NCBI GenBank assembly: GCA_012032285.1
Contig: JAAURJ010000018.1
Coordinates: 1 to 51,912 of the forward strand
Origin: Sphingomonadales bacterium
GTDB taxonomy: Bacteria > Pseudomonadota > Alphaproteobacteria > Sphingomonadales > Sphingomonadaceae
DNA length: 51,912 bases
Reading direction: 5' to 3'
The position numbers and the translations under genes are program-made. Each line of letters opens with the position of its first letter. The first letter of the stretch is position 1. Below, piece by piece: positions 34,258 through 41,627 of this stretch. The notes below the pieces were generated by a model, which made no database searches, had not been told where the DNA came from, and saw nothing but the letters and a program-made list of their open reading frames with translations.

Positions 34258-35081
34258 CAGGATACACCGGGATAGCGGGTCAGCAAGTCATTCCCCGGCA
34301 GATAAGGCTCCCCCCGAAAATTAACCGCATTGGCAAAACGGCCCGAACAAGTAGCAATAATTTTATTGCAACCTTCAACAAGCGCCGCCCTTGTCCCAGC
34401 CAGCACCGGGAATTCGGGTATTTGTGCCAAATAAACATCCTTGTTCCCACTGGCATAAATATTGGATGTTAAACCGCAATTTTTACCGTCGAGCCATCGC
34501 ACATGGCCATAGGCAAAGCCATTGGCGCCTCCTGGTAAATCATTCTGAAAAACAATATGATCGGCGTCTGCATGGCTGACAATACGTTCATGGCGAAAAC
34601 GGGCCTGACTTAGCCCGCAATTCGCATCGCAAAAACTGGCGCGGCATCCCGGCGATGTTTGCGGCACAACCGGCGAATTCAAACGGGCCGCCGGACCATT
34701 AACCTCAACCTGAAAATTCTCGCCCGAATAGGTTACCTGTCCCAACTCGCCTTGCGCCAATATCCGTTTGCCTGCCCCCCGCTGGGTCCAATCGAATAAA
34801 AACACCGACAGGGCACAGCCATTCCAGCGTCCGGCCGATAAATCCGCCTCTGATATTGCATCGCTGCTCACAATACCGCTTATCTCTAGGCCGCCATTAT
34901 CAAGGCCCAAGCTTTCCGAAACCGCGCTCGGTTCCATGCCCGGACTGGCGCGATAGAGCAGCCCGTCAATTTCCACATCGCGGTCATGCGAAGTGAAACC
35001 AATTGTGATCCCGTCCCGCCGTTCCAGCCGCCAGCCATAGGCCGTGCTGGTCAGATCACCTGCCAGCCAAAAATCGGTCAT
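34257..35081 (-). CDS. GTA DUF2163 tail hub protein (g13)
   Basis: A 274-residue protein matching the DUF2163/phage BR0599-type family of GTA tails. MTDFWLAGDLTSTAYGWRLE, RRDGITIGFTSHDRDVEIDG and the cysteine cluster SPGCRASFCDANCGLSQARF are typical; the cysteines may bind an iron-sulfur cluster, as reported for the Rhodobacter homologue. It is coupled on both sides: ATGA with g12 and TGATG with g14. It forms part of the baseplate hub. Confidence 0.85.
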   Translation of the reverse strand: MTDFWLAGDLTSTAYGWRLERRDGITIGFTSHDRDVEIDGLLYRASPGMEPSAVSESLGLDNGGLEISGIVSSDAISEADLSAGRWNGCALSVFLFDWTQRGAGKRILAQGELGQVTYSGENFQVEVNGPAARLNSPVVPQTSPGCRASFCDANCGLSQARFRHERIVSHADADHIVFQNDLPGGANGFAYGHVRWLDGKNCGLTSNIYASGNKDVYLAQIPEFPVLAGTRAALVEGCNKIIATCSGRFANAVNFRGEPYLPGNDLLTRYPGVS

Positions 35082-37401
35082 AACGACTCCTTCACTTCAA
35101 TCAGAGGTACCGACGGCATTTCGCCAGCGCCAAAGCTGAAGCGGCTCACCTCAATCCGGTCCTCGGCAAAACGCACCGGCACATCAAAATAAAAACCGGC
35201 GCTGATCACCGCGCCATTTGCGGGGGCGTCGCCAAAGATTATATGCCCGTTTTCCGCTTGCCATCCTTGCGCAGCCTGTCCGTTAACCGCGACGAGAATG
35301 CTGTCTTCAACCGGGCGGCTGATCTGACGCAGCTGCGCCTCTCCGTCTTCGCCATAGCGTTTCACAAGCGCAAAGCGGGTGGTTATCCCGTCGCCTTCAC
35401 CCAATAACTGGTCCGCCTGCGTCGGAGGGGCGGTCATGCCATTGGAGCTATAATCAAAAGGATCGCGGAAGCGAAAAGCCTTCGCCGCGCCGCGCCGCGC
35501 CCGGAAAAAACCAACCAGCTGCGCCAGTGCTGCATCGCTGCTAATACCTGGAGCGACATCATAGCTTTGCCGGGCATCGGACCAGTCGCTGTTGCGCCGT
35601 TCATGCCCCGATAGGGTGGTGGCAATTTGGGTAGAAAATTCCGATGTGGAGGACGCCCGCGCCCCGATTTCTAACGGGAATAAAATATCGTCAAAGGCCT
35701 GCACCTCTTGCTCCTCTCCTATTTCAAAATGGGTGTAGCCATCACGGCAGATTTGCGGCAGCGCCCAGATATAGCTTTGTGCCGTTCCCCTTTTCGCGCT
35801 GCGCTGAACGGCTTCCTCAATATCGCTCCACTGCGCCTTATCGGCGGCATTCAGGACAAAGCCGGAAAAATAATGCTGCTCCTCAACCGGATAGCCCAGC
35901 CGCTGTGTCGTTGCGGTTATCGCCCGGTCCGTTGCGCCGTGATTGCCGCTGGTCACCCAGTCATAATCTTCAAGCTGCAAAACATCAAAAGCAGGCGCAG
36001 CCCAGCCTATGGGCACATTGGCCCTTTTTGCTTCCGGCGCTGCGGGATCAAGCACAGTGGGCAGGTAAACAAGCAGCAAAGTCTCTGCGCCTGCCGCGCC
36101 CGCCTCCTCACGCACCGCCGCGGCCAGCGCCGTAGTAGATGAAGCGAGCATCTCGCCCGCTTTATCCAACATCCTATTTTGCGCGGCGCTTTTGGGCCCC
36201 ATGATAGTATGGATACTCACTGACAAGGAACCAAAAGCAGCGCTGGCGGCGGCATCATATAGGCAGATGCGGCCATCTGGCATAATCCACCACCATGGCT
36301 CGCCAATTTGGAATTTCACCGGCAGCCCCGCTTGCCTCAATATCGCGGCAAAGGCCCGCCCGACCGATTGTAAATAGGACATTGCCCCCTGATGCGCGGG
36401 CGATAGCAGCGTCGATGGCGGCACCCATCCGGTAAGCGCCGGATCGCCATTTTCCGCACGCTGTTTCCAATCATTCCAGCAATGGGCATCGAACAGCTCA
36501 TAGGATAGTGAGAAAATCAGATCATAGCCTGCGTCTTTGACCAAGGATGCGAAATTTTCATGCCATGCTTTGCACGGCGCATTGAGCGTGCCGCCTGCCA
36601 GGCTAACATAATGCTCATTGCCCAGCGGTTCGAGCCGGAAATAGTGGCTCATCCCGGCATAATGATTGATCGTCCCGCGATAGCCCAGCCCCCTTATCTG
36701 GCGCAGCAGCCGGGCCGGGGTCTGGTTATAGGCATCGTCATAGCCGGTCGCCATTTTAAGGCTATGTTCGGGCAGCATAACGTCGCCTGTATCAAGCATT
36801 ACTCCTGCGCCGTCACAGCGTATCTGTGACAGGGTGACCCAGCCTTCTCTGACGGCGCTGAAAATCTGTTCAGTGCCGCCATATTCGGGCGGGACAAGCG
36901 AAATGAACATTCGGTCAATATCGCTTGCAAAGACCGGATCAGCCTCCGATGGGAGCAGGAATCCGCCTTTCAGATCGCTGAATTTCAGGGTAATTTGCGC
37001 GTCTGTCGGCGTTCCGTTGGCATAATTCCAAAGCCGCACATACCAGCTTTTGCTATTCCCGGCTGCGTCACGCCCTTCAATCGTCAATGTCGGGCCATGG
37101 ACTGCATCAAGCGGCATAATCCCTTGCGATTTCCAGCGAAAGGATAAGGTCAAGCGGCGATAATCCCGTTTGGTTTCATAAGCGAGCAGCGGATGATCGA
37201 GCCGGTCCTCACTGTCCCAAATCAGCCCGGCGAGATCGTCATTTTTGTAAAAGCTCGCATCAACCCTCAGCGATTCCGCGCCTGTTGTCACCACCGATGC
37301 CATCATCGGACGCGGAAAGTTGACCGTCCAGAAACGCGGGTCGAACCGCATCACCGCGACGCTTTGCTGACGCCCTTTTTTTCACATAGCCAATAGGCCA
37401 T
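35078..37401 (-). CDS. GTA distal-tail DUF2460 protein fused to a glycosidase-like barrel (g12), N-terminal frameshift
   Basis: The last ~215 residues are the DUF2460 distal-tail domain (SGHERRNSDWSDARQSYDVA; FFRARRGAAKAFRFRDP). Before it is a ~540-residue extension with a TIM-barrel glycoside-hydrolase look: IFSLSYELFDAHCWNDW, QIGEPWWWIMP and FDVLQLEDYDWV give candidate acidic residues at strand ends. The annotated-looking start GTG 37354 lacks a ribosome site. ATG 37401 has TAAGGAGG but stops after MAYWLCEKKGVSKASR. One extra base in the A7 run (T7 at 37376-37382) joins MAYWLCEKKGRQQSVAVMRF, which I take as the true N-terminus. The alternative is a 16-residue leader coupled by TGATG. Confidence 0.75.
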
Positions 37402-37411
37402 AACCGCCTCC

Positions 37412-37518
37412 TTAATTACGGCTGAGCGCTTGGCGCACCATACGGGCCACCTGACGCGAGGAACGCTGCAGGCTTTCGGGGGCACTGCCCCGGCCATTGT
37501 CGGAAATATGGATGCTAA
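37412..37518 (-). pseudogene. C-terminal remnant of the GTA tail tape-measure gene (g11)
   Basis: Read backward from the TAA at 37412-37414, this frame gives SIHISDNGRGSAPESLQRSS then RQVARMVRQALSRN. APESLQRSSRQVARxVRxAL is how GTA tape-measure proteins end. About 34 codons survive; the frame meets a stop inside the transposon's terminal repeat. The rest of the gene and all head genes (g1-g10) are absent from the window. The stop lies 10 bases before the g12 ATG, so the operon order is otherwise normal. Confidence 0.8.
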
Positions 37519-37542
37519 GGCATTATTATACTTGACATACCC
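37519..37542 (+). repeat. Left terminal inverted repeat of the transposon
   Basis: The repeat starts GGCATTATTATACTTGACAT and ends with ACCC. Compared with the right end, three positions differ, all transitions (A/G, C/T, A/G). The repeat cuts the g11 reading frame. Confidence 0.85.
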
Positions 37543-37585
37543 ACGCTTTTCTCCTAGTTTGAAACCAGAACGGAGAATAGAAGTC

Positions 37586-38503
37586 ATGGCATCGGCCCTT
37601 TCAGCACCCCACTTTCACAGCGAAGAAGCCGCTTTTGCATATGTTGAGGCTCGCGTTTGGGCAGAAGGTCCGGTTTGTCCTCACTGTGGCGGCTTTGACC
37701 GTATTGGTAAAATGGGTGGCAAATCCACCCGCGTCGGCCTCTATAAGTGCTACCAATGCCGCAAGCCATTTACCGTGCGAATTGGCACCATTTTCGAGAG
37801 CAGCCATGTGCCGTTGAACATCTGGCTTCAAGCGATGTATCTAATCGCCGGTAGCAAGAAGGGCATTTCCAGCAACCAACTTCACCGGACCCTTGGCGTT
37901 ACCCTAAAAACCGCATGGTTTATGTCGCACCGTATTCGCGAAGCGATGCGTGACGATAACATGGATATGTTCGGCGGTGAAGGCGGTGAGGTCCAAGCGG
38001 ATGAAACCTACATCGGCAACATCGCCGAAAAGGCTCCCAAGGCGCGCGGCTTTGCTCACAAGATGCGCGTTGTCAGCCTGCTCGACAAGCGCACTGGCAA
38101 AACCCGTTCTTTCTATGCGCCTAGCAAGAGCCTTCCGACCGTATCGCAGATCGTGCGCGACAATGTGGATCAGGAAAGCCACCTTGTTACCGATGAAGCC
38201 CGTTACTACTGGCGCGTTGGCAAGGAGTTCGCGGGCCACACCAAAGTGTTTCATGGCACTGGCAACTATTTCAAAGACGGTCGCACCACCAACGATATTG
38301 AGGGCTTTTTCAGCATTTTTAAGCGTGGTATGCGCGGCGTCTATCAGTTCTGTAACGAACGCCACTTACATCGCTATCTTGCCGAATTTGACTTCCGCTA
38401 CAGCAACCGCGTAGCATTGGGCTATAATGACGCAGATCGCGCTGACACCATGTTGAAGGGCATCGTCGGCAAGCGTCTCACTTATCAAAGGGCTAGTGCG
38501 TAG
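37586..38503 (+). CDS. IS1595-family transposase
   Basis: 305 residues from ATG 37586 (MASALSAPHFHSEEAAFAYV); the longer frame from 37430 starts outside the element. An N-terminal zinc ribbon (C31, C34, C55, C58: CPHCGG ... KCYQC) is followed by the DDE-type catalytic core: QADETYIG with Asp139, VTDEARYY with Asp203, and the TNDIEGFFSIFKRGMRG block holding the third acidic or Asn residue. Size and motif layout fit the ISNwi1-like branch. The ORF is intact, so the element may be active. Confidence 0.9.
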   Translation: MASALSAPHFHSEEAAFAYVEARVWAEGPVCPHCGGFDRIGKMGGKSTRVGLYKCYQCRKPFTVRIGTIFESSHVPLNIWLQAMYLIAGSKKGISSNQLHRTLGVTLKTAWFMSHRIREAMRDDNMDMFGGEGGEVQADETYIGNIAEKAPKARGFAHKMRVVSLLDKRTGKTRSFYAPSKSLPTVSQIVRDNVDQESHLVTDEARYYWRVGKEFAGHTKVFHGTGNYFKDGRTTNDIEGFFSIFKRGMRGVYQFCNERHLHRYLAEFDFRYSNRVALGYNDADRADTMLKGIVGKRLTYQRASA

Positions 38504-38658
38504 TGCCAAAAAAGAAAAATCAGGAAAGCCAAGCGGAGCAAAGCGAGCGGTTCAAAAAAGCCATCCGCGACCTCGTGGACGCTGGCGAACTAAACCCCAC
38601 CGAAGCCGATAAGGCGTTTGACAGGTTAATGGGGCAAGTTAAAACGAAGTCCGCTTAG
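38503..38658 (+). CDS. 51-residue charged ORF downstream of the transposase
   Basis: GTG 38503 overlaps the transposase stop (TAGTG) and encodes VPKKKNQESQAEQSERFKKA then IRDLVDAGELNPTEADKAFD and a short tail ending KTKSA. It is very rich in Lys, Glu and Gln and is probably a small helical protein. The coupling suggests it is made together with the transposase, perhaps as an accessory or regulatory factor. Its stop TAG (38656-38658) overlaps the methylase stop on the other strand. The family is not recognised. Confidence 0.6.
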   Translation: MPKKKNQESQAEQSERFKKAIRDLVDAGELNPTEADKAFDRLMGQVKTKSA

Positions 38659-39539
38659 GCAGCTTTGCGATATTGGGGCCGATTGACCTGTCGCGCCTTC
38701 ACGGTATCTGGCATTGTTAGACCCTTCGAAGCAATTAGTAGCTCGGTCCCTACGCGCTTCTCTTGAAGAGAGTAGTTGATGTCGAAGCAGTATTGGCGGC
38801 GAGCCTTGTAGAGTGCACGGATTTCCGGCGTATCGTCATATGTAACGATCCATGGGCGATCCAAACCGATAATGCGTTCCGCTAGTTCGCCATGATCTTG
38901 AGGCCGATAGAAGCTCATATAGAGCGATGAGCCTTTGTTGAAATATGGAGGATCGACAAACAACAATGATTCTGTTGGGATTTCGCGCTCGCATTGGTTT
39001 AGGAAGTCAATCGCATCCAAATTTGTGAGATGGATGCGGTCTTCATATTTCTTGATGCGTTTGATGCGCTGCGCCAGCCTACCCGCGTTGTAGCGGCAAT
39101 CAATCTTGTAGTTTCCGGTCTGATCAAGCCCGCCAATGACACCGCCCCCCTTGATGATCCCAGATCGATTTGTGCGGTTAAGAAAGAACGCACAAAACCC
39201 TAAAGCCAGCACATCGTCTGTTTTACCGCTCCGCATAAATTCGCGCTGCTTAAGCCACTCGTCGATTGTCACTGGCGTATTCAGAACTCGCTCAACCAAA
39301 GCGTCGGTTTCGTTTAGAACGCAATGCCAGAAAGCCCAAATCGCGGGATCAATGTCATTGATATGGATGTCCGCTACATAGCCGCCATATAGCAGCTCCA
39401 ATGCCAATCCACAGCCGCCAGCGTAAGGCTCAAGATAATGGCCGCGCTCGAGCTGGTTTGCCCGCAGGATGGATGCGGTCAAACTCAACATACATGATTT
39501 ACCGCCTGGATAGCGAAAGGGTGAAGCCGTGGACGCCAT
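38655..39539 (-). CDS. DNA adenine methylase (D12/Dam class), transposon cargo
   Basis: 294 residues from ATG 39539, which has AGGA 6 bases upstream; an in-frame ATG at 39578 is possible. The motifs are in alpha-group order: PFRYPGGKS (residues 7-15), EPYAGGCGLALEL (38-50) for SAM binding, and the catalytic FVDPPYF (194-200). The NRTNRSGIIKGGG segment is also typical of Dam-like enzymes. No restriction endonuclease of a known type is beside it. It may methylate the element's own ends or protect DNA against the neighbouring nuclease-fold protein. Confidence 0.88.
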   Translation of the reverse strand: MASTASPFRYPGGKSCMLSLTASILRANQLERGHYLEPYAGGCGLALELLYGGYVADIHINDIDPAIWAFWHCVLNETDALVERVLNTPVTIDEWLKQREFMRSGKTDDVLALGFCAFFLNRTNRSGIIKGGGVIGGLDQTGNYKIDCRYNAGRLAQRIKRIKKYEDRIHLTNLDAIDFLNQCEREIPTESLLFVDPPYFNKGSSLYMSFYRPQDHGELAERIIGLDRPWIVTYDDTPEIRALYKARRQYCFDINYSLQEKRVGTELLIASKGLTMPDTVKARQVNRPQYRKAA

Positions 39540-39607
39540 AGGATTTCCTGCTAAAATGGTGCGCTTTAGCGGAATCATAACAAAAAATGGTTGTCACGGC
39601 CAGCGTT

Positions 39608-40897
39608 TTATGGAGCCTTATTTGAAGCGTCATCCACGCATTTTAGAACTACGTCTTTCAGCGCCGTCATATCGTTGTTTAGCTGGTCACCCGCAAAGGC
39701 TGCCAGCACGGCATGATGCTTGGTAGTGTTGCCGAATTGAGAAATCCGCTTCAACGCCTCTGACAGAGCAGTAGTCTTGCCTACAATGCCCATATTAGAA
39801 AGTTTGCTAGGGGCTAAGTATCCGTGAAAATCCGTTCCATCTTTGCGCCCCTGACAACCCGTTAGCGTTTCAAAAAACGACCACATACCAACAGCGATCA
39901 AAGGCGAATGATGTTCAAGCTCAATATCGCAAATCGAGTGATACAGGCTTTCCAGCTTCTTGTTTCCATAACCCTTCAATGCTTGGAAAATCTCTTCCTC
40001 ATATTGGACATGCTTCGCCTTTTCAGGCTTCTTCGGCTTCTTCTTCCGGGTCGCCTTGGTCTTGCCCGCGCTTGCGCCCTCGTTCAGCGGCTCTGAGTCA
40101 ATCCTATTGCCAGTCAATCCGCGAATGTTGTTAAGCGGGCGGGCGTATTTTACGATGTCCTCCTTGTTCATGCGCGAGTTTACATCTTCCTTGCCAACCA
40201 AATCCCGTACAAAACGCTTTAGGATAGTATCGAAATCCTCTTTTGGTCGTGTCCGCGACGGCTGCTCTGGATTATCTTGATCAAATCCTAAGGACTCTCG
40301 GAAAGTCTGGTTGCTCAAAAACCGCTGAACTGTCGTGAGTTTTCCTTCGCGTTGTTCAGGTGTAATCATACCCACTTGCTCAGCATAGTCGAGCAATGCC
40401 TGTGAGGCTTTGTTCTTATTTCCACCGTCAAAGCGAGCCTTTTGCTCTGCGTTCCATTGACGGCGACCAATGCCGCCCTGAGCGCCGTTGTGAATGCGAT
40501 CCAGCCATATTCGTATAGTTTCAATATCTTCAAATTTTACGGCCGTGACGGTTTTTACAGGTGTCCAGCCTTCGGCCAGCTTGGCAAATTGCTTGCGATA
40601 TTTGGGAGGCGCTAACTCAGGATCACTTAACAGCTTTAGAGCGCAAATGCGCCGATTTCCCTCGGCGACGAAGAATGTCCCGCCTGTCTTTTTCTTGTCA
40701 GCCGGTATTACGCCACACAATTCTATAGGATTCAGGCCGAACTTTACGACATCCCGCGCCAGTGAGTAAACATCCTCTTTCTCGCAAAGATAGGTAATGG
40801 CCTCTGCTTCACTATCGAACGGCTCGTGCCGTGGATTACTGTGCAGAAGGAAAATCCGGCTTAGAAGAATGCTGTCAGGTGTTCCGAAATTTGACAT
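39608..40897 (-). CDS. ParB/Srx-fold N-terminal domain protein, transposon cargo
   Basis: A 429-residue protein. Residues 10-100 are a ParB-like domain: LLHSNPRHEPFDSEAEAI and the signature FFVAEGNRRICALKLL (79-83 EGNRR), a fold that binds CTP in ParB and is a nuclease in relatives. A strongly basic linker follows (GKTKATRKKKPKKPEKAK). The C-terminal ~140 residues are helical and contain QFGNTTKHHAVL, which recalls the RNxxxH-like site of HEPN-type RNases, though weakly. It is transcribed towards the methylase with a 68-base gap. The function is unknown. Confidence 0.65.
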   Translation of the reverse strand: MSNFGTPDSILLSRIFLLHSNPRHEPFDSEAEAITYLCEKEDVYSLARDVVKFGLNPIELCGVIPADKKKTGGTFFVAEGNRRICALKLLSDPELAPPKYRKQFAKLAEGWTPVKTVTAVKFEDIETIRIWLDRIHNGAQGGIGRRQWNAEQKARFDGGNKNKASQALLDYAEQVGMITPEQREGKLTTVQRFLSNQTFRESLGFDQDNPEQPSRTRPKEDFDTILKRFVRDLVGKEDVNSRMNKEDIVKYARPLNNIRGLTGNRIDSEPLNEGASAGKTKATRKKKPKKPEKAKHVQYEEEIFQALKGYGNKKLESLYHSICDIELEHHSPLIAVGMWSFFETLTGCQGRKDGTDFHGYLAPSKLSNMGIVGKTTALSEALKRISQFGNTTKHHAVLAAFAGDQLNNDMTALKDVVLKCVDDASNKAP

Positions 40898-40954
40898 TTA
40901 TTAGCCCCGCGTGACGACTCATTCGCAACGCTCTAATAACACGAAATTGCTTTT

Positions 40955-40978
40955 GGGTATGCCAAATATAATAACGCC
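40955..40978 (-). repeat. Right terminal inverted repeat of the transposon
   Basis: On the minus strand it starts GGCGTTATTATATTTGGCAT and ends with ACCC. It lies 4 bases past the stop codon of the GST gene, so the GST gene is intact up to its last codon. Confidence 0.85.
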
Positions 40979-40982
40979 TAAA

Positions 40983-41627
40983 TTATCCCAATATCTTGGC
41001 CTCCATCGCCAATTGCCGTACAAAACTTGGCCTTGCCCATGTTGCCGACAGCCATGCGGCCAGCCTGGGATAGGCCGAAGCATCCACGCTCACGCCGCCA
41101 TGTTTGAAATTCACAAAAATACTGGCCAGCGCTATATCGGCGAGGGTCAGCGCGTCGCCGACAAGGAAATTACCGTTTTCAGGCATGGTTTTTTCGAGTT
41201 TTTCGAGTATCGGCGGTAAAGTTTCTCGCTCCGCTTTGTCCGCAGCCGCCAAATCTCCGTCCTTGCCCATGAATTTGGGTAAAACAACCCGGTTGAAAAA
41301 TATCGGCGCGGTGACAGCGGCGAGCGCGGTGTCTGCTATTTCGTCAAAGAAAATCACCCGGCCCACCGCCTGCGCCTCTTTGGGCAACAATAGTGCGCCA
41401 TGTTTGGCTTCCAGATAATGAATAATCGCGCTGCTATCGGCAAGGGTGAAGCCGTCATCTTCTATCGCCGGAATTTTGCCCATGGGCGAGGCCGCTTGAA
41501 ATTCGGGGTTTTGTCCATCCGGCCCCATGGGAAAAATCGGCACATGATCATAGGTCAGATCGCGCTCAGCGCAATAAATCATCAGCTTGCGGACAAACGG
41601 CGATAGCGGGGCACCAAAAATTTTCAT
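40983..41627 (-). CDS. Glutathione S-transferase family protein
   Basis: 214 residues from ATG 41627 (MKIFGAPLSPFVRKLMIYCA); the longer frame is unlikely because the thioredoxin-like strand starts here. The SPFVRK segment is the GSH-binding start, PMGKIPAIEDDGFTLADSSA holds the conserved cis-Pro and the Asp-Ser pair, and the C-terminal domain is helical (FLVGDALTLADIALAS). It is cytosolic, possibly for detoxification. The transposon end lies 4 bases after its stop codon. Confidence 0.87.
   Translation of the reverse strand: MKIFGAPLSPFVRKLMIYCAERDLTYDHVPIFPMGPDGQNPEFQAASPMGKIPAIEDDGFTLADSSAIIHYLEAKHGALLLPKEAQAVGRVIFFDEIADTALAAVTAPIFFNRVVLPKFMGKDGDLAAADKAERETLPPILEKLEKTMPENGNFLVGDALTLADIALASIFVNFKHGGVSVDASAYPRLAAWLSATWARPSFVRQLAMEAKILG

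Follow-up and report, generated by a model that had tools for sequence, protein, structure and literature searches.

In Escherichia coli lacking the mrr region, PD-λ-5 altered the plaquing of all but one of ten phages (Vassallo et al. 2022). The available excerpt of that report (PMC9519451) presents it as an apparently compacted prophage version of a restriction-modification plus abortive infection (RM+Abi) system, and its published contexts, within the excerpts accessible, are prophages, genomic islands and integrative conjugative or mobilizable elements (ICE/IME). A second set of described elements, the transporter insertion sequences (tIS) of the IS1595 family, includes tISCpe8 and MTnSag1 (Siguier et al. 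2009, as cited in the available parts of PMC3129680 and PMC8496243); tISCpe8, a lincomycin-resistance element, is counted among mobilizable elements in the available part of PMC5704250. The two meet in the 51,912-nucleotide stretch of Sphingomonadales DNA analyzed here (contig JAAURJ010000018.1, hereafter the window), where a 3.46-kb element is very probably a transporter-type IS1595 transposon whose cargo is the two-gene PD-λ-5 phage-defence pair, a ParB-like protein and a DNA adenine methylase. Unlike in its published contexts, the pair stands alone in a simple IS1595-type transposon, which would be a near-smallest possible self-moving unit. The parts of the element are as follows.

37518-40979: IS1595-type element, 3.46 kb, ending in 26-nt inverted repeats that are 88% complementary
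37518-37543, plus strand: left inverted repeat, with TTGACA at 37532-37537, likely the -35 box of the transposase promoter
37586-38503, plus strand: intact IS1595-family DDE transposase, 305 residues (PF12762, 3.1e-28; PF12760, 2.1e-10; NF033547, 8e-49)
38503-38658, plus strand: open reading frame (ORF) of 51 codons directly after the transposase, part of a conserved module of about 1.1 kb
38655-39578, minus strand: D12-class N6-adenine methylase, assigned to PD-λ-5 component B (PF02086, 4.7e-11; DPPY intact; start probably Met14, 39539)
39608-40897, minus strand: ParB-like protein of 429 residues, assigned to PD-λ-5 component A, with an N-terminal ParB/Srx-fold domain, a basic linker and a C-terminal HEPN-like domain (motifs EGNRR and GNTTKH)
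40954-40979, minus strand: right inverted repeat, with TTGGCA pointing inward, toward the cargo operon

Both components were matched nearly full length by PADLOC models of PD-λ-5. For the ParB-like protein, the component A model PDLC04000 gave 3e-172 and covered residues 6-427 of 429; for the methylase, the component B model PDLC04018 gave 6.4e-120 and covered residues 14-298. The two genes adjoin on one strand with A first, an order that was the same in loci L007, L008 and L140-L151. By homology, the pair is assigned to PD-λ-5, and a defence activity is predicted on the same ground. An earlier note on this DNA had described a transposon with the pair as cargo and suggested a mobile, modification-based defence module, and this agrees with a PD-λ-5 match lying together with a transposase inside the repeats of an IS1595-type element; its remark that it knew of no named system with just these genes is superseded.

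The methylase lay beside the ParB-like gene in all six full-length genome homologues (L007, L008, L030-L033) and in ten of ten viral contigs, and the pair was also present in Paracoccus phage vB_PkoS_Pkon1 and on a Kosakonia plasmid. The idea that it would always travel with this transposase was not borne out, as this transposase was absent from the fetched flanks of L007, L008, L030-L037, L136-L139 and the ten viral contigs. In a FastTree tree, the window ParB-like protein grouped with the IMG/VR contigs L142 and L143 and with L007 and L008. Because of this grouping with viral contigs and the lack of the transposase in the homologue flanks, we take the pair to be mobile independently of this transposase; it was probably acquired from a lineage of the prophage type.

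Two other intact elements of the same transposon group carried the pair. In L094, whose transposase is 51% identical to that of the window, an 8/8 target duplication was present and PADLOC scored component A at 3.3e-178 (with PDLC04009, a different A model from the best one for the window) and component B at 2.4e-116. The other, L262, is a 3816-bp element on the Mesorhizobium sp. AR07 plasmid pMspAR07d (825737-829552), with 21 of 22 end bases matching and an 8/8 duplication; its pair lies on the strand opposite the transposase, a layout like that of the window, and the PLSDB record carries no annotation. The 40 regions read from the class sample yielded no homologue of the pair. In the transposase tree, the window element, L094 and L262 were far apart, and the window ParB-like protein was distant from those of L094 and L262. 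On these trees, the pair appears to have been captured independently at least twice. Since the L094 and L262 pairs are related (support 0.74), a third capture is likely but not certain.

The two repeats formed the top-ranked inverted pair in 37400-41100, and the same repeats were found in relatives of the element. The transposase has the ISXO2-like DDE domain and the zinc ribbon (PF12762 and PF12760) by which the IS1595 family is recognized; the remaining transposase matches in the same draft genome were only 31-43% identical. From left to right, the element holds the transposase and the small ORF on the plus strand and then, on the opposite strand, the ParB-like gene and the methylase, transcribed inward from the right end. 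The GC content of the cargo was about 49%, against 52-57% in the flanks. The terminal repeats, the intact transposase and the adenine methylase reported in the earlier note were thus all recovered.

The promoter of the transposase seems to lie in the left repeat. A TTGACA-like sequence with at least five of six bases was present in the left repeats of 76 of 93 elements of the group, and a -10-like peak was found at spacing 17 (mean match 2.80 of 6, against 2.43 at spacing 19, the next best, and 0.96-2.16 at the others). At the right end, the -35/-10 signal was weaker, at most 1.76. The signal was visible only across the group: a sigma-70 scan of the window element by itself gave 5 candidates where 3.4 were expected.

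No useful family was found for the ParB-like protein in Pfam and NCBIfam, PHROGs placed it in families of unknown function, and a PDB sequence search with its profile gave 0 hits. L007 and L008 encode homologues that span its full length (55 and 57% identical), and others occur in viral contigs, which ruled out that it is an assembly of unrelated fragments. Residues E79-G80-N81-R82-R83, which we take to resemble the GERR nucleotide-binding box of ParB, were invariant in an alignment of 13 homologues. When the whole AlphaFold2 model (predicted local distance difference test, pLDDT, 80.7) was compared with the PDB by Foldseek, ParB-CDP and Noc came first (6sdk, E 7.5e-4, probability 1.00) and sulfiredoxin next. 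This is consistent with the ParB/Srx-type N-terminus that had been proposed from the letters alone.

For the isolated C-terminal domain, the model reached a pLDDT of 88 and a predicted template modelling score (pTM) of 0.85, and seven of its first ten PDB matches were titled HEPN, all with weak E-values; 7bxo and 1ylm, among these ten, are presumably of the HEPN kind. The match to 2hsb had a template modelling (TM) score of 0.50. The canonical HEPN RNase motif is R-x4-6-H. In 12 aligned C-termini, with the divergent L151 left out, the G, T, K and H of a GN-x-TKH site were invariant; once this thirteenth homologue was included, only the histidine was. The domain is therefore called HEPN-like only, because R-x4-6-H is not conserved and the E-values are weak, and any catalysis is putative. 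The earlier note had raised a possible HEPN-like C-terminal site (FGNTTKH), and the predicted fold, with its weak E-values, points the same way.

The methylase was called D12 by Pfam and NCBIfam, the Dam model staying below its cut-off. Its DPPY motif was invariant in 11 sequences (L150 and L151 not included), and six of ten aligned homologues start at window Met14, so that the true start is probably at 39539.

Several observations weigh against this identification and the fold assignments. The window copy lacks an 8-bp target duplication (GATGCTAA / TAAATTAT). The pTM of the whole-protein model was low, only 0.43, and TM-scores to ParB and Noc were also low, 0.15-0.25 by query length (just 0.18/0.35 for the 6sdk match). 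The best HEPN match, that to 2hsb, reached only E 0.57 with probability 0.77, and no invariant arginine stands 4-6 residues ahead of the histidine, where G-N-x-T-K-H is found instead. Finally, among more distant ParB-like loci (L003-L006, L017-L029; flanks of about 1.5 kb), a methylase was seen in only 4 of 17, and four of the 13 without one (L136-L139) still had none when re-read with wider flanks. The pair is consequently not obligatory across the ParB-like superfamily.

The wider group was surveyed with transposase homologues at E<=1e-60. Counting the window genome each time, these were present in 62 of 396 genomes of the order (56 with one match) and in 38 of 385 genomes of the class (28 with one match). 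Besides the window, 67 regions of the order were read, 60 of which had defined ends (lengths 1831-3703 bp, each with 854-2724 bp of other DNA behind the transposase); the others were L070, L089, L113, L126 and L133-L135, and L070, with a weak repeat, was added by hand for cargo extraction. Among the 40 class regions, 32 had ends (misses: L228, L234, L236, L239, L242, L245, L255, L258), L224, L226 and L231 having passed on repeat score without a duplication and the ends of L226 and L231 being odd. With end shifts of up to two bases permitted, 8/8 duplications flanked 53 of 60 order elements and 26 of 32 class elements. These duplications were rich in A+T: in the order they reached 73% where the 500-bp flanks had 38%, and for the class the two figures were 58% and 40%.

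Compared with L069 or L071, window element DNA gave one long match over bases 1 to about 1100 and a second over the last 26, all others being repeat-to-repeat or short chance matches. The element thus consists of a fixed module of about 1.1 kb (left repeat, transposase, small ORF) and a 26-nt right repeat, with an exchangeable slot between. When elements were paired whose transposases had 80% identity or more, 3 of the 30 pairs shared a cargo family (blastp, ORFs of at least 90 residues, 1e-4), and none of the three pairs above 90% did. Of 12 pairs with homologous flanks on both sides, only L095/L103 shared cargo. The group resembles tIS in its IS1595 transposase, its repeats of about 25 nt and a passenger gene beside the transposase, but differs from tISCpe8, with its lincomycin resistance, in having defence- or toxin-antitoxin-like cargo with fast turnover. 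No report of an IS1595 group with defence cargo was found in the literature searched (mainly open-access papers, without bioRxiv).

Cargo was analyzed on mechanically called ORFs, 98 of the 106 of at least 90 residues in the order (window pair included) and 58 of 58 in the class. In the order, Pfam gave 15 families: DUF3800 (9 members), SocA/Panacea (5), DUF4145 (3), D12 methylase (2), PIN (2), and one each of DUF1828, HATPase_c_4, GmrSD_N, PemK, SLFN_AlbA_2, HNH_5, Trypsin_2, GIY-YIG, HARE-HTH and SMC_N. The 18 class families included GmrSD_N, PIN, DUF3800, N6_N4_Mtase, SocA, three HEPN types, RelA_SpoT, DUF1828 and PIN_10, the remaining ones being DUF433, HNH, NYN, NA-iREase1, Cas2, Mrr_cat and HTH_66. 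Most of the recognized families we take to be defence, nuclease or toxin-antitoxin families; DUF3800, DUF4145, DUF1828, Trypsin_2 and HTH_66 are not diagnostic of defence. A Pfam control on 98 length-matched flanking ORFs drawn from 601 gave 74 families, and the 25 of these that were listed were mostly metabolic or housekeeping, with one DndE. Judged by family matches, recognizable cargo is thus mostly defence, nuclease or toxin-antitoxin like, unlike the flanking ORFs (25 of 74 families listed).

At least 67 of the 98 order ORFs and at least 37 of the 58 class ORFs had no Pfam match at 1e-3. PADLOC, run on cargo ORFs only, recognized among the rest PDC-S46 (4.7e-255), BstA (1.6e-115), PDC-S33, NsnA, PDC-M24B and type II/III methylases, with 25 of 51 and 25 of 73 families listed in its two scans, the second covering 143 of 152 ORFs. 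The match to PDC-S46, a candidate defence family, is a lone 732-residue SMC-like protein (L080:4563-6761). The nine order ORFs with DUF3800, the commonest recognized cargo, included those of L077, L084 and L095 (scanned singly) and L083, L103, L105 and L107 (linked by blastp). All six named plasmid relatives were from Alphaproteobacteria: VapC- or PIN-family genes were found in two (Methylobacterium, Roseomonas), the PD-λ-5 pair in one, and hypothetical or DUF3892 genes only in the other three, in one of which the transposase match was in two pieces.

As to mechanism, we hold each of the following steps with far less confidence than the identification of the element. The transposase would act on both repeats and make 8-bp duplications, as in the relatives. 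The D12 enzyme would modify host DNA at an adenine motif, and the ParB-fold domain may read DNA in a nucleotide-dependent way and meet invading DNA that is unmodified. The HEPN-like domain at the C-terminus might then be released as an RNase-type effector, and infection would end either directly or through abortive infection. Apart from these steps, the slot in this group of transposons, where its content is recognizable, mostly contains small defence or toxin-antitoxin cassettes and is often refilled. In logic only, the pair is like PrrC-type or RM+Abi pairs, where methylation-based self-recognition is tied to an RNase-type effector (PMC9296519, in the part available), but a ParB-fold domain takes the place of the type I restriction complex of PrrC-type pairs.

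An unlikely alternative for the mechanism, compatible with the PD-λ-5 identity, is that the pair serves chiefly as an addiction (stability) module, with the methylase as antitoxin and the HEPN-like protein as toxin. Toxin-antitoxin-like cargo does occur in other elements (SocA/Panacea, PIN, PemK, RelA_SpoT, VapC), and a low-copy element would profit from stabilization; however, frequent cargo replacement speaks against strong addiction, and the E. coli relative had been selected as a phage defence (PMC9519451, available excerpt). Somewhat more doubtful still, and likewise compatible with the PD-λ-5 identity, is an ordinary type II restriction-modification mechanism, in which the ParB-like protein itself would cut unmethylated DNA. 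The methylase adjoins a protein with a DNA-binding fold and was scored by PADLOC also as MTase_II (3.1e-101), but at E<=1 the ParB-like protein had no match to a restriction-endonuclease family in Pfam, NCBIfam or PADLOC (of 26 PADLOC families, the 25 listed were all PD-Lambda-5_A), the families listed for all four element proteins included no recognizable one either, and the C-terminus looks HEPN-like.

Dam methylation regulates some IS elements, and the pair does sit within the repeats; yet the possibility raised in the earlier note that methylation of the ends controls transposition, here extended to an integrated control device with the ParB-like protein as a partition or end-binding factor, is very improbable and was rejected. 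Of the elements examined, only the window element, L094 and L262 have this methylase or a homologue of it (only L094 among the 60 order and 32 class elements with ends), relatives with like ends and mostly with 8-bp duplications lack one, and phages and a plasmid carry the pair with no such transposase close by.

Returning to the transposon with its PD-λ-5 pair, the missing duplication was considered together with the insertion locus, whose flanking genes are given below.

35078-37354, minus strand: gene-transfer-agent-like tail gene, residues 553-755 matching the distal tail protein Rcc01695
37415-37517, minus strand: final 34 or so codons of a homologue of a 192-codon gene (L187:3212-3790), truncated by the element
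40983-41624, minus strand: presumed glutathione-S-transferase (GST)-like gene, whose stop codon lies 3 bases away from the element

On the left, homology to relatives extends as far as 37514, three bases short of the element. In L187, about 8.9 kb separate the point of the cut gene from a GST-like gene that is 47% identical to that of the window and lies beside the same, presumably YqaA-like, gene. This stretch holds capsid and portal genes of a gene transfer agent (GTA; RcGTA Rcc01687, 2.8e-92; Rcc01684, 5.5e-84) and had no tblastx match at 1e-5 in the window or in contig C24, the only other contig of the genome checked. The window GTA cluster appears, on this comparison, to lack some 8.9 kb that include the capsid and portal genes among others, with the transposon at the gap. 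A deletion adjoining the element would account for the absent 8-bp duplication.

The window copy lies at the same GTA locus as a cluster of its relatives. Twelve of the 60 order elements (L073, L085, L092, L095, L098, L101-L105, L108, L109) had a GTA-like gene no more than 1 kb away, compared with none of the 32 class elements. Nine of the twelve had at least four GTA queries matched, and ten sit upstream of a terminase-like gene, at a distance of 591-834 bp; the GTA assignment of L085, L104 and L109 is a terminase match alone, and these could be prophages. Against a null that roughly assumes 17 kb of GTA in a 2-Mb genome with uniform insertion, the proximity gave 1e-13, or 7e-6 when likely shared insertions were collapsed to 6 of 54. 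No tRNA genes were found at two hotspot loci. The clustering may come from target choice, from harmless ground or from spread by GTA particles, any of the three. A GTA capsid holds about 4 kb, and the elements measure 1.8-4.3 kb; since most would fit, GTAs could spread them.

More broadly, and with slightly more doubt than confidence, we propose that a low-copy IS1595 clade, seemingly alphaproteobacterial, serves as a dedicated vehicle for compact defence and toxin-antitoxin cassettes. Its cargo would change faster than its transposase diverges, and it would recurrently park at the edge of GTA clusters, GTAs possibly spreading it. If this is true, the many cargo proteins lacking a Pfam match would be candidate new defence systems. 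DUF3800, the commonest recognized cargo, might have a defence or toxin role. The transposase in any case is a simple bait for new small defence systems, and the group offers a testable model of defence-gene shuffling without islands, including the unexplained link to the GTA locus.

The 51-codon ORF, which the earlier note had regarded as coupled to the transposase, is more than a chance frame: relatives of it lie immediately 3' of the transposase in L069, L073, L076 and L078. In addition, a small ORF with a core like SQ-x-DKFKEAAR-x-LE-x-DD recurs in L084, L093, L097, L099, L101, L103, L105 and L108, directly after the transposase or farther on, amid the cargo; the window ORF (38503-38658) aligns just loosely with this core. 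The recurrent small ORF is perhaps a transposition accessory.

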